Source of the DNA: a bacterium
GTDB lineage: Bacteria; UBP18; UBA7526
Length of the DNA stretch: 16,050 bases
NCBI GenBank assembly: GCA_030619985.1
Contig: JAUXAI010000027.1
Location: 1-16,050, forward strand
Direction: 5' to 3'
Shown: positions 9,413 through 14,634 of the stretch, one piece after another
Layout of the letters: every line of letters starts with the position of its first letter
Position numbering within the stretch: position 1 is the first letter of the stretch
The notes under the pieces: generated by a model
Databases searched by the model: none
The model's input: the letters and a program-made list of their open reading frames with translations, nothing else
Told to the model about the DNA's origin: nothing
Translations under genes and position numbers: made by a program

Positions 9413-9441
9413 TTGACAATCTGCCTCAAGTAGGGTAGAAT
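9413..9441 (+). promoter_or_regulatory. Sigma70-type promoter of arsR
   Basis: A perfect -35 box TTGACA (9413-9418), a 17-base spacer and TAGAAT (9436-9441) form one of the best promoters in the window. The start of transcription, near 9448, falls at the edge of the palindromic element at 9451-9476. Confidence 0.8.
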
Positions 9442-9450
9442 AATGTTGGT

Positions 9451-9476
9451 ATCATTCGCACGAATGAGCGAATGAT
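9451..9476. promoter_or_regulatory. Putative ArsR operator, copy 1 (arsR promoter)
   Basis: The 26-bp element starts ATCATTCGCA and ends GCGAATGAT. It holds one CGAATGA half-site on the - strand and two on the + strand, the latter in 8-bp direct repeat. The outer 9 bp on each side (ATCATTCGC and GCGAATGAT) are perfectly inverted, and CATTCG-CA-CGAATG is a second, inner palindrome. Lying directly after the -10 box, it is well placed for repression by the product of the gene downstream. That binding is inferred. Confidence 0.6.
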
Positions 9477-9523
9477 ATTTCATACATTTTCATCTGTGTA
9501 AAATTGTGGTTCAGGAGGGAAGG

Positions 9524-9802
9524 ATGAAGGAACTGACCAAGCTCTTTAAGGCCTTGGCCAACGAGAGGAGACTTAAGATACTATACCTCTTGGCTAAAAG
9601 AGGTAAGGTAACGGTCTCCAGTATTAGCCGTAATTTGGGCCTCTCCATCAGGAGTATCTCCAAGCATCTCTTGAAGTTAGAAGATGTTGGTTTAGTAGTG
9701 CGCAAACAGACGAGTAAATGGGTCTATTATTCCTTGAATGACAATCCAAAAGAGGATGTAAAATACCTACTTAAAGTACTTCGTAAGAAACGAAGAAGAT
9801 AA
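9524..9802 (+). CDS. ArsR-family winged-helix transcriptional regulator
   Basis: This 92-residue DNA-binding protein has the ArsR/SmtB shape. LTKLFKALANERRLKILYLL is the classical opening helix pair. The recognition helix region is VSSISRNLGLSIRSISKHLL, and the wing is LVVRKQTSKWVYYSLND. It has no cysteine, so the usual Cys-based metal or arsenite site (ELCVCDL) is missing and its signal is unknown. The ATG at 9524 is chosen over an upstream GTG (9506) because AGGAGG (9513-9518) lies 5 bases before it. A strong promoter and a palindromic element lie upstream, the same element follows its stop codon by about 10 bases, and 23 bp of it lie before secA. Autoregulation is therefore likely. Confidence 0.85.
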   Translation: MKELTKLFKALANERRLKILYLLAKRGKVTVSSISRNLGLSIRSISKHLLKLEDVGLVVRKQTSKWVYYSLNDNPKEDVKYLLKVLRKKRRR

Positions 9803-9812
9803 TTTTCTTGGA

Positions 9813-9838
9813 ATCATTCGCACGAATGAGCGAATGAT
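9813..9838. promoter_or_regulatory. Putative ArsR operator, copy 2 (before the TPR/HExxH gene)
   Basis: This copy is identical over all 26 bases to copy 1. It starts 10 bases after the arsR stop and ends 27 bases before the next start codon. A possible -10 box GATAAT (9798-9803) lies just upstream, but no matching -35 is seen. As RNA it would form a 9-bp hairpin without a T-tract. Confidence 0.5.
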
Positions 9839-9865
9839 AGAAAGCCTGATTAAAGGACCGCAAAA

Positions 9866-11728
9866 TTGAAGAAGGCAGTAGGTTTATGTTTAATAATATT
9901 CCTGATGCTATGGGCATCTGTTGTTTATGCTGATGTAATTCATTTAAGAGATGGGGGAACAATTGAGGGAGAGATAATAGAGGAAACTAAAGACATAGTT
10001 AAAGTAAAAACTACCTATGGAGTAATATCCCTTCAGAAAAATCAGATAGCTTCCACAGAGAAGCGAGTTACGGATGAGAAGATTTACAAAAAGAGGGCAT
10101 CGAAGATAAAACCCAATGACCCTGAAGCACACTATCAACTCGGTCTCTTCTGTATCAAGAAAAGATTAAATGACTATGCCATTAAAGAGTTAGAAGCAGT
10201 TTTAAGACTGAAGCCAGAGCATATCGATGCTTCCTACTATCTGGGCATCGCTTATGAAAGAAAAGAAAAGTATAAAAAAGCATTGGGGAAATTTGAAGAA
10301 GTATTGAAGCAGAACCCATTCTATAGTGCTCGAGACAAAGATCGATTTTTCAACCTTCTGAAGAAAGCAAAAGAGAGTGAAAATTACTTTGAAGTTCACT
10401 CCTATTTGGGGAATGCCTATGAAAGGCAAGGGAAACATGAAGAAGCATTGGCTGCGTGGGAGAGGGTGATCGACACCTGCTTTGAATCGACGGAGGAGGA
10501 AAGAGAGAGGGCAAGAAGACATCTAAGAATATTACATAAGAAAATCCCCCCCAATAAAAACCCTGCCAAGGCCAATGTCTGGGACATGTTCATTGCCATC
10601 GTTAGGAAAACGGACTTTACCTGGGTAGATAAGGAAGGGGTTGTAAAGCATGTCGCTGTCTCTTTAACCGACAAACAGATTGATGCTATACGCTCGAGCA
10701 TGATGGACTTTGCCCAGTGGGTATTTGAGCATTCAAGGGGTCAGATGCGAATCAATCTTAAATTTAAAGCCATCGATGAACCGATATCCAAGATTAGCAC
10801 CTCGCGCGGGAAATATATGCTCAAACCAGAGGACATGAGGAACTCCATTATCAAACTCTATAAGCAGGGAGAGGCTGATACCCTTGCCATTTTCTGGAAT
10901 TCAGGGGATATTCCACTTGCTCACGGTGGTTACTGTTTCTCTCATGGGAGCGCAAGAAAGAATGCCTCTGTTTTCTTATGTGCTATTCTCCCTAAATTTG
11001 ATATTGTTTCTAGAACTTTTAATGTGGCCAGGCACGAATGGCTACATAATCTCGATAGTGCAATCACCAATATATTAAAATACAAAAAGGAACTCTTTCC
11101 CGATATTCATCATCCGCCAGCAAGTTATAAGGGATATTCCAAAGACCTTTTCTATGAGGATATGATGAAGACCTGGGTAACATCGAAGATGTGGCAGGAG
11201 GCCACAATTATAGACGTAATTACCGCTCCTTTTATCAGAAACTGGCTAGTCTGTGGTCCCTTTGATAACTCAAAGAAGAATGGCTTAGCTACCGATTTTA
11301 TCTATGAGGAGCATGTAAAGCCATCTTTAGGTAAGGTAAGTAATGGAAAGAGATGGAAAGAACTGAAGAGTGCTAAGGATAATATAGATCTCAGGAAAAG
11401 TTTCAAGCCGAATAATTATGTCGTTGCCTATGCCCATACCTACATCTACTCACCCAAAGAAGAGAGGGCTAGATTATGGATAGGAAATGATGATGGTGCT
11501 AGGGTATGGTTGAATGGCAGATTAATACGGGAAAGTCCTGCACCCGGTGGGGCACGACCCTGGGAAGAGTTAATACCTATTATTTTAAAGAAGGGCTGGA
11601 ACCGGCTCTTGGTAAAGGTTGATCAACTGGGAAAGGGTTGGGGATTCTACGCTCGAATATGCGACAACCGAAGTAAAGAGATTAAAGGGCTGAAGTATCA
11701 ATTAAATAGACCACAAGAGATGAAGTAA
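9866..11728 (+). CDS. Secreted TPR protein with HExxH metallopeptidase-like domain
   Basis: This 620-residue protein starts at a TTG with AGGA 8 bases upstream. Residues 1-22 are a Sec signal peptide ending VVYA before Asp23, so it is exported. A small domain at 23-65 (VIHLRDGGTIEGEIIEE) resembles beta-barrel modules seen before TPR repeats. Three or four TPR units cover about 83-225 (HYQLGLFCIKKR, SYYLGIAYERKEKYKKAL, SYLGNAYERQGKHEEALAAW). The region 236-445 contains HEWLH (390-394), the zinc-binding HExxH pattern, with His415/His416 or Asp413 as possible third ligands. A C-terminal beta-sandwich-like module (about 451-601; RLWIGNDDGARVWLNGR, GWNRLLVKV) is of the kind often attached to extracellular enzymes. 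I recognise no named family for the whole protein; peptidase activity is inferred from HExxH alone. It lies between arsR and secA, flanked by the same palindromic elements. Confidence 0.72.
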   Translation: MKKAVGLCLIIFLMLWASVVYADVIHLRDGGTIEGEIIEETKDIVKVKTTYGVISLQKNQIASTEKRVTDEKIYKKRASKIKPNDPEAHYQLGLFCIKKRLNDYAIKELEAVLRLKPEHIDASYYLGIAYERKEKYKKALGKFEEVLKQNPFYSARDKDRFFNLLKKAKESENYFEVHSYLGNAYERQGKHEEALAAWERVIDTCFESTEEERERARRHLRILHKKIPPNKNPAKANVWDMFIAIVRKTDFTWVDKEGVVKHVAVSLTDKQIDAIRSSMMDFAQWVFEHSRGQMRINLKFKAIDEPISKISTSRGKYMLKPEDMRNSIIKLYKQGEADTLAIFWNSGDIPLAHGGYCFSHGSARKNASVFLCAILPKFDIVSRTFNVARHEWLHNLDSAITNILKYKKELFPDIHHPPASYKGYSKDLFYEDMMKTWVTSKMWQEATIIDVITAPFIRNWLVCGPFDNSKKNGLATDFIYEEHVKPSLGKVSNGKRWKELKSAKDNIDLRKSFKPNNYVVAYAHTYIYSPKEERARLWIGNDDGARVWLNGRLIRESPAPGGARPWEELIPIILKKGWNRLLVKVDQLGKGWGFYARICDNRSKEIKGLKYQLNRPQEMK

Positions 11729-11753
11729 AATTTTTTAGAGAAAGGAAGATAGA

Positions 11754-11776
11754 ATCATTCGCACGAATGAGCGAAT
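11754..11776. promoter_or_regulatory. Putative ArsR operator, copy 3 (before secA)
   Basis: The first 23 bases of the 26-bp element are present without mismatch; the right end diverges (GCGAATAAC). A possible -10 box TAGAAT (11750-11755) overlaps its left edge, but no good -35 is visible. It ends 41 bases before secA. Confidence 0.5.
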
Positions 11777-11817: not shown

Positions 11818-14634
11818 ATGTTGGGGTTTATTTTAAAGAAGATATTTGGGACAAAGCAGGAGAGGGATATCAAGCAGTTAAAACCTCTTACAGGAGAGAT
11901 TAATGCTTTGGAGCCGGATATCTCAAGGTTGAGTGATGAAGAACTTCGGGCCAAGACGGATGAGTTCAGATCCCGCATCAAAGAAAAAGAGAAGGAATTT
12001 GAGGAAGAGATAAGGGGTTTGAAGGTTCAGTTACAGGAAGCAGCCTCCTCAAAGGAAAGGAATAAGATTAAGGAAAGGCTAAAGGAGACCAGGAATAAGA
12101 TATCTGAGGATATCCTTCCCGAGGCCTTTGCTGTGGTGCGGGAAATAGGAAAGAGAACCATTAATATGAGACACTTCGATGTCCAGTTGATAGGGGGCAT
12201 TGTCTTACATCGGGGGAAGATCGCCGAGATGGCTACAGGAGAGGGAAAGACCCTGGTGGCTACCTTAAACGCTTACTTGAATGGTTTGACTGGAGAAGGG
12301 GTACATATCATTACTGTCAATGACTATTTAGCCAGAAGGGATACGGAGTGGATGGGCCCCATATATGATTTTTTGGGCCTCTCTGTGGGATGCATCCAGC
12401 ACGATAAGTCGTTTCTTTTCGATCTATCCCTGAGCGAAACCGGAAGATGGGAACTGGACAAAGTGGGCTCTGGAATCTATCTCCGTCCGGTAAGCCGCCA
12501 GGAGGCCTATCAGGCAGATGTCACTTATGGGACGAATAATGAGTTCGGCTTCGATTATCTAAGGGATAATATGGCCCTTAGACTAGAGGACAGGGTTCAG
12601 AGGAAACTCAATTATGCCATTGTCGATGAGGTGGATTCCATATTAATCGATGAGGCGAGGACTCCCTTAATTATCTCCGGACCAGCAGAGGAGTCAACGG
12701 ACAAATACTTCATTGTCAATAAACTAATTCCCGGGCTAAAAGGAAGATTCATCTTGGAGGAAAAGGAGAAGGAGGCCAAGAAGGAGGGGATAGACTTAGA
12801 GAAGGGATATGACTATATTGTCGATGAGAAGGCCGGGACGGTAAAACTTACCGAGGAAGGGGTAAAGAAGTGTGAGAAAATACTTGGGGTGAGCAACCTA
12901 TACGATGATATACAATCTGAGTGGGAGCATCATATCAGACAGGCGTTAAGGGCCCATAACCTATTCAAAAGGGATCGTCACTATGTGGTAAAGGATGGCC
13001 AGGTAATTATTGTTGATGACTTTACCGGAAGACTGATGCCGGGCAGAAGATGGAGTGAAGGTTTGCATCAGGCGATAGAGGCCAAGGAGAATGTGAAGAT
13101 CGCCAGGGAGAATCAGACCTTAGCTACCGTCACTTTCCAGAATTACTTCCGGATGTATGATAAATTAGCGGGGATGACGGGAACCGCAGCCACGGAGGCA
13201 GAGGAGTTTAATGAAATCTATAAGTTAGACGTCGTAGTTATCCCTCCCAATAAGTCTTTAATAAGATACCAGTGGTCGGATGTGATATATAAGACAGAAG
13301 AGGAGAAGTTCAAGGCAGCGGTAGAGGAGATAGCAAAATTACATAAGGAGGGAAGACCGGTCTTAGTAGGAACGGTATCCATCGAGAAGAGCGAATACCT
13401 GAGTAATCTATTGCGAAGGAAGGGAATTCCTCATGAGGTATTGAATGCCAAGAATCATGAGAGAGAGGCCCACATCATTGCTAAAGCTGGTCAGAGAGGC
13501 TCAGTGACCATCTCTACCAATATGGCGGGAAGGGGAACGGACATCGTCTTAGGAGAAGGGGTGGCCCAGATGGATGGGCTACATGTCTTAGGGACAGAGA
13601 GGCATGAAGCAAGGAGGGTCGATAACCAGTTGAGGGGAAGGGCGGGGAGACAGGGGGACCCTGGCTCTTCAAGGTTCTACCTCGCCTTACAAGATGACCT
13701 TATGAGGCTCTTTGGTTCGGATCGGATCTCCTTCATCATGGATAAACTTCGCATCCCTTCCGATCAGCCTATTGAACATGCCCTGGTGACCAGGGCCATT
13801 ACCACTGCCCAGAAGAGGGTGGAGCAGCGAAACTTTGAGATAAGAAAACATCTCTTAGAATATGATGATGTCATGGAGAAGCAGAGGGATTATATCTATA
13901 GAAGGAGAAGAGAGATTTTAGAGAAGGAAGACCAGAGCCAGACCATCAAGGAATGGATGGAGGGGATCTTGGATAGTGCTTTAGATACCCATATCCCGGA
14001 GAAGGTTCATCCCGAGGATTGGGATATTGAGGGATTGAATAGAGGCCTCGGCCAGATATTTCCTATTGCCTTGAGAAAAGAGGATATCGATCTCTCCCGA
14101 ATAACGAAAAAGGATTTGAAAAAAATACTCTGGGATGCTATTCTCAAAGCCTATCAAGAGAAAGAGGAAAGAATCGGCCCGGAAAGTATGCGTGCCCTGG
14201 AGAGAGATATCATGCTCCACATCGTCGATTCCAGGTGGAAGGATCACCTCTACAATCTGGACCATTTGAAAGAGGGGATCGGCCTTCGGGCCTATGGCCA
14301 GAGGGATCCTTTAATAGAATATAAACACGAAACCTTTAACTACTTTACTACGCTCTGTGAAGCCATTCCCCAAGAAACGATTGGGCTCTTATTTAAGGTT
14401 CGCCTACCAGGAGAAGCGGCGCCCAGAGAAGCACCGGTTAGAAGACACTTCATCCATCAACGCTACTCGACCTACGACATGGCAGAAGCAAAAGGAGAGG
14501 TTGAACAGCCGGATATCAAGGGAGAGCCAGAGGCCAAGCCCCTTCCCTTTAAGAGGCCGGGGAGGAAGATCGGGAGGAATGAACCCTGCCCCTGCGGCAG
14601 TGGGAAGAAGTATAAGTACTGCTGTGGCAGGTAA
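11818..14634 (+). CDS. secA: Preprotein translocase ATPase SecA
   Basis: SecA drives unfolded proteins through SecYEG. The 938 residues cover the whole protein. MATGEGKT (138-145) is the Walker A motif and DEVD (270-273) the Walker B/DEAD motif. [29 protein letters not shown] and [14 protein letters not shown] mark the helicase-like motor. The C-terminal SEC-C tail ([18 protein letters not shown]) has the C-X-C-X8-CC zinc pattern used to bind SecB or ribosomes. GAAGGA (11803-11808) is the likely ribosome binding site. Walker A Lys144 lies about 36 positions later than in E. coli because of a charged, probably coiled-coil insert at about 56-95. The gene follows a secreted-protein gene and a copy of the putative ArsR element. 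Confidence 0.96.

Follow-up and report, generated by a model that had tools for sequence, protein, structure and literature searches.

The pattern known for regulators of the ArsR/SmtB family is that of 12-2-12 repeats lying 5′ of the regulated genes or within them (PMC8790569). The palindromes of REP/RAYT systems carry GTAG or CGTC tags at the foot of the stem (PMC3733652). As to secA, the control that we met in the literature is translational and relies on arrest peptides of the SecM type (PMC10987492), and our literature search found nothing on a link between ArsR and secA or on the palindrome reported here. We analysed a stretch of 16,050 nucleotides, hereafter the window, in which the same palindrome precedes both an arsR gene and secA. 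From sequence comparison, we consider it probable that this palindrome serves as operator for an ArsR protein that lacks cysteine and represses its own gene, with an operator class of its own, and that the regulon includes secA.

Three copies of a palindrome in the window

The features of the locus, all on the forward strand, are listed below.

9413..9441, + strand: sigma-70 type promoter of arsR, TTGACA-N17-TAGAAT
9451..9476, + strand: palindrome copy 1, about 10 bp 3′ of the −10 hexamer; putative autoregulatory operator of arsR
9524..9802, + strand: arsR, start codon ATG at 9524; 92 aa, winged-helix, without cysteine, recognition helix LSIRSISKHL
9813..9838, + strand: palindrome copy 2, directly after arsR and 27 bp 5′ of the TPR gene start
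9866..11728, + strand: gene of a secreted TPR/HExxH protein, TTG start, between arsR and secA in the window's genus
11754..11776, + strand: palindrome copy 3, 41 bp 5′ of the secA start codon; putative secA operator
11818..14634, + strand: secA (Pfam SecA_DEAD, SecA_SW, SecA_PP_bind, SEC-C)

The sequence ATCATTCGCACGAATGAGCGAAT(GAT) was found three times in the window, before arsR, before the TPR gene and before secA. As the original prediction had stated, copies 1 and 2 are the same over 26 bp and copy 3 matches them over 23 bp. The same prediction described one inverted and two direct CGAATGA half-sites; this arrangement was found as described, except that the final half-site of copy 3 reads CGAATAA. 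Ten occurrences of the heptamer CGAATGA were counted in the window where 1.6 were expected; none of 200 shuffles reached 10, and eight of the ten fall within the three palindrome copies. When the window was searched with ATTCGCNNGAATNNGCGAAT, allowing up to three mismatches, matches were obtained at the three copies only (0.14 expected). The genome from which the window comes (G000, 1.25 Mb, 84% complete) contains the exact 21-mer at the three window copies only, and a variant, GCGCGAATGGGC, was found at two places outside them. The spacer between the TPR gene stop and the secA start measures 89 bp, 23 of which are filled by the palindrome, and no convincing promoter of their own was found for copies 2 and 3. 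The counterpart of copy 2 in the related genome G002 is a full 28-bp dyad. As a separate observation, short CTGTG-rich repeats (ATCTGTG units) lie beside copy 1 (window 9487-9516) and beside the copy on contig C4 of G002 (L191; L116).

The arsR gene, its product and its promoter

The near-consensus promoter that had been proposed just 5′ of copy 1 is indeed there (TTGACA-N17-TAGAAT at 9413-9441, 11 of the 12 consensus bases). The 92-aa product scored 40.6 bits against Pfam HTH_5 (cut-off 22) and 78 against NCBIfam NF033788 (cut-off 55). Its AlphaFold model has a pLDDT of 89, and the nearest PDB folds to this model, according to Foldseek, are HlyU, CzrA and SmtB (prob 1.00). Pfam, NCBIfam and the predicted fold thus assign the protein to the ArsR family, with a canonical winged-helix fold. 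It contains no cysteine, in agreement with the original prediction; cysteine is also absent from the G002 ortholog and from most clade members, with one or two in a few. The cysteine-based metal or thiol sensing site, a feature of many but not all ArsR/SmtB proteins, is therefore lacking in the window protein.

The arsR-secA order in other genomes

G002 keeps the arsR-TPR-secA order together with all three sites. In G004, which belongs to a different genus, the TPR/HExxH gene is absent between arsR and secA and the order reads ogt-(promoter and site)-arsR-(site)-secA; since contigs C20 and C90 of this genome overlap by exactly 141 nt, arsR-(site)-secA is contiguous. Orthologs of copy 1 stand at the same place before arsR in G002 and G004, and the upstream regions of both have in common the hexamers and spacing of TTGACA-N17-TAGAAT, the distance from promoter to site being the same in three genomes of two genera. 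The G004 site before arsR has altered outer arms, with core and promoter spacing unchanged. As is usual for ArsR/SmtB operators, an inverted repeat of 12-2-12 size is thus found at the regulator's own putative promoter, in the form of a dyad of about 30 bp located 3′ of TTGACA-N17-TAGAAT and kept in G002 and G004.

Beyond these genomes, the order is guaB-(site)-arsR-(site)-secA in Giovannonibacterium G060, where arsR is divergent, and hpf-(sites)-arsR-(site)-secA in Liptonbacterium G070; in another Liptonbacterium, G064, hpf and secA are about 3 bp apart, without the arsR block of G070 (SecA and Hpf identities were assigned by Pfam). The distance from the core to the secA start is 50-68 bp in G000, G002, G004, G060 and G070. 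Loss of the element from a conserved arsR-secA order would have spoken against the original prediction; the element was present wherever that order was found (G002, G004, Giovannonibacterium and Liptonbacterium). Where secA was located in further Patescibacteria with arsR or the palindrome, no site stood just before it; the link between site and secA is therefore recurrent rather than general.

The palindrome follows one class of ArsR recognition helix

The core ATTCGNNCGAAT, within its palindrome of about 30 bp, flanks cysteine-free ArsR genes in the window's family and in Patescibacteria. Homologs of the window ArsR repeatedly adjoin the palindrome, with one site 5′ of the gene and often another right after the stop codon. 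We collected ArsR proteins by searches blind to the palindrome and looked for ATTCGNNCGAAT within 260 bp upstream or 120 bp downstream of each gene: it was near 7 of the 12 ArsRs of the window's helix class, a class defined for these counts after the first protein set had been seen, and near none of the 19 others (Fisher p 3e-4). The contrast was 8 of 12 versus 0 of 19 for any near-perfect palindrome, that is with at least 12 of 13 pairs (p 6e-5), and 11 of 12 versus 0 of 19 for ATTCGNNCGAAT or another strong dyad. In one case (L038, G003) the helix is present and the palindrome absent. ArsRs with altered helix letters carry altered half-sites, AGTCG..CGACT in G257 and ATTCTATAGAAT in G187. 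In 54 sites the arm sequence varies, yet at 7, 8, 10 and 11 bp from the centre the outer arms show more dyad complementarity than expected, a pattern that homodimers of differing specificity would give. Altogether, as judged from these sequences, the palindrome goes across phyla with ArsR genes that share one class of recognition helix.

A second paralog of arsR, whose putative operator has a spelling of its own, AAACCATTCGCGCGAATTCGCAAGTG, was observed at the head of nadC-birA (L186, G001:C106; L173, G000:C39). Contigs C39 and C72 of the window's genome share a 126-nt end, which indicates that the second arsR and its site head nadC and birA there as in G001.

Distribution of the palindrome and copies inside genes

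In a scan of 257 billion bases, 41 stretches contained the 21-mer. They came from Patescibacteria and from relatives of the window's genome (CSMAG_2709, CSMAG_2684, KR13, UBP18_UBA7526), and the MAG bacterium isolate clean1841 contributed two; no match was obtained in IMG/VR viral contigs. Two records (L092 and L095), from Curtissbacteria and Uhrbacteria, have identical site flanks, possibly owing to a misbinned contig. The dozens of scattered copies that the original prediction had set against a regulon were not seen: genomes of the window's genus hold 8-14 exact cores each, mostly just 5′ of genes. Indeed, most of the 40 core sites in five family genomes lie 5′ of a co-directional gene, often 20-60 bp from its start; two are between convergent genes and four are orthologous copies within birA. 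One more family site, tabulated as convergent, is about 50 bp before arsR2. By position, the candidate targets include prfB, etfB, metG and a GIY-YIG gene adjoining lipA (names read from the protein sequences). A short ORF 5′ of prfB ends in CTTTGAC, the RF2 programmed-frameshift stretch, with the palindrome further 5′ (L172, G000:C12:1-3500; L178, G002:C12:6500-11500). A second palindrome family of similar architecture, CATTCCCG.ATTCCCGGGAAT.CGGGAATG, was noted at G000:C7:3013-3040 and G000:C86:22329-22356 (L012, L018).

Some copies are inside genes. In birA, a palindrome variant encodes part of a 19-aa in-frame insertion relative to solved BirA structures. Patescibacterial copies lie within truB, as a 14-aa insertion, within ppsA, with no net insertion, and within dinB, a helicase gene and the N-terminus of rnhB. 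Given these copies and those between convergent genes, not every copy can be an operator. Because the in-frame insertions in birA and truB are clear, the palindrome evidently can spread and has a mobile component beside its putative operator function. The window copies show neither a GTAG nor a CGTC tag at the foot of the stem. A search for PF01797 (Y1 transposase) gave no match in G000-G005, and mobilisation by RAYT was rejected. A comparison of orthologous spacers for empty sites showed no target-site duplication, the spacers being too diverged.

Discussion

An ArsR regulon around secA, as originally predicted, is supported by comparison, both through the tie of the sites to the ArsR helix class and through the recurrence of arsR with secA; binding is presumed. 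From this comparison we infer binding, repression, release by a signal and the action of copies 2 and 3 in the following form. The recognition helices of an ArsR homodimer would contact the inner dyad, ATTCG-NN-CGAAT, and its wings the outer arms, which lie about 7-14 bp from the centre; in size, such a site falls within the range of the 12-2-12 repeats known for ArsR/SmtB proteins. Copy 1 would cover the arsR transcription start and bring about autorepression. Through copies 2 and 3 this repressor would also control the TPR gene and secA, whether each copy acts on a promoter of its own or forms a roadblock inside an operon. The regulators of the clade would differ in the outer arms they use. 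Release would depend on a signal, which in the window protein is not one read by a cysteine metal site.

Several other explanations have to be weighed against an ArsR operator. The palindrome could be a mobile repeat, dispersed in the manner of REP, MITE or Rickettsia palindromic elements, that has no part in regulation and stands near arsR by chance. This was our early reading in its plain form, based on unrelated loci and the copy within birA, and it was dropped after the tie to ArsR genes emerged. The near-identical 21-mers in 41 stretches of the window's family and Patescibacteria fit it, as do the in-frame insertions in birA and truB and the copies in ppsA, dinB, the helicase gene and rnhB. 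However, copy number is low, the palindrome is strongly tied to a single ArsR helix class with its variants, and in G004 the site persists at an unchanged distance from the promoter although its arms differ; moreover, the window copies lack both tags and no Y1 transposase match was obtained in the family. We hold this explanation to be unlikely. Very improbable in our view is an action at the RNA level, in which a hairpin in 5′ leaders and intercistronic spacers would govern how stable the mRNA is or how it is translated, the dyad being maintained for base pairing and not for a protein. Copies 1 and 2 and the G002 copy do fold well (z −4.0, −4.5 and −5.2) and the outer arms vary in a compensatory manner, but the hairpin is weakened by the poor folding of copy 3 before secA (z −1.5); moreover the core sequence stays constant while the arms vary, the arms are asymmetric in many copies, and the association with ArsR is left unexplained.

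The block formed by arsR and its two sites could instead be a small spreading cassette, made of an autorepressor between its own operators, that inserts between genes, regulation of a neighbour such as secA being a by-product. Many loci of the clade have a site on each side of arsR, presence is patchy (a match in 12 of 192 Patescibacteria) with varied neighbours, and the block lies between hpf and secA in G070 and not in G064. Yet the block carries neither transposase nor recombinase, no target-site duplications were shown, and three distant lineages each have it before secA, which suggests that the link is under selection, so that we regard such a cassette as quite unlikely. The operator explanation can itself be widened, tentatively and at rather long odds, to a spreading module: small ArsR repressors with operators on both flanks, whose palindromes would also disperse alone, even in frame into genes, the module as a whole having come to stand directly 5′ of secA in three or more distant lineages, so that an ArsR switch would govern protein export.

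If secA is indeed under this operator, a dedicated DNA-binding repressor would be linked to secA in uncultured lineages, a different logic from translational control. The clade also contains numerous putative regulator-operator pairs whose half-sites and helix letters vary jointly and from which ArsR specificity could be read, as well as a candidate signal independent of cysteine.

Compared with known systems, the locus resembles the SecM type in that secA would be controlled from the region just upstream; SecM acts through a nascent peptide, whereas the proposal here involves a repressor gene and a dyad in the DNA (PMC10987492). Palindromic elements of the Rickettsia type are inserted in frame into coding genes; here such an insertion is clear in birA and truB, ppsA shows no net insertion, and most family copies are intergenic. 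REP/RAYT elements are likewise palindromes of 20-40 bp, mostly intergenic with some inside genes (PMC3733652), but the window element has no tag, few copies, no Y1 transposase in the family genomes and a link to ArsR. The SdpR-type autorepressors (NCBIfam NF033789) are also small members of the ArsR family; the window ArsR scores 50.7 against this model, below the cut-off of 100, and its gene context differs. With the ArsR/SmtB proteins SmtB, CzrA, AzuR and HlyU, the window system shares the winged-helix fold, an imperfect inverted repeat of about 26-30 bp at the regulator's promoter, and sites 5′ of or inside target genes (PMC8790569). It differs from them in the absence of cysteine, in the ATTCG/CGAAT half-site with variable outer arms, in the sites on both sides of arsR and in having secA as a putative target.
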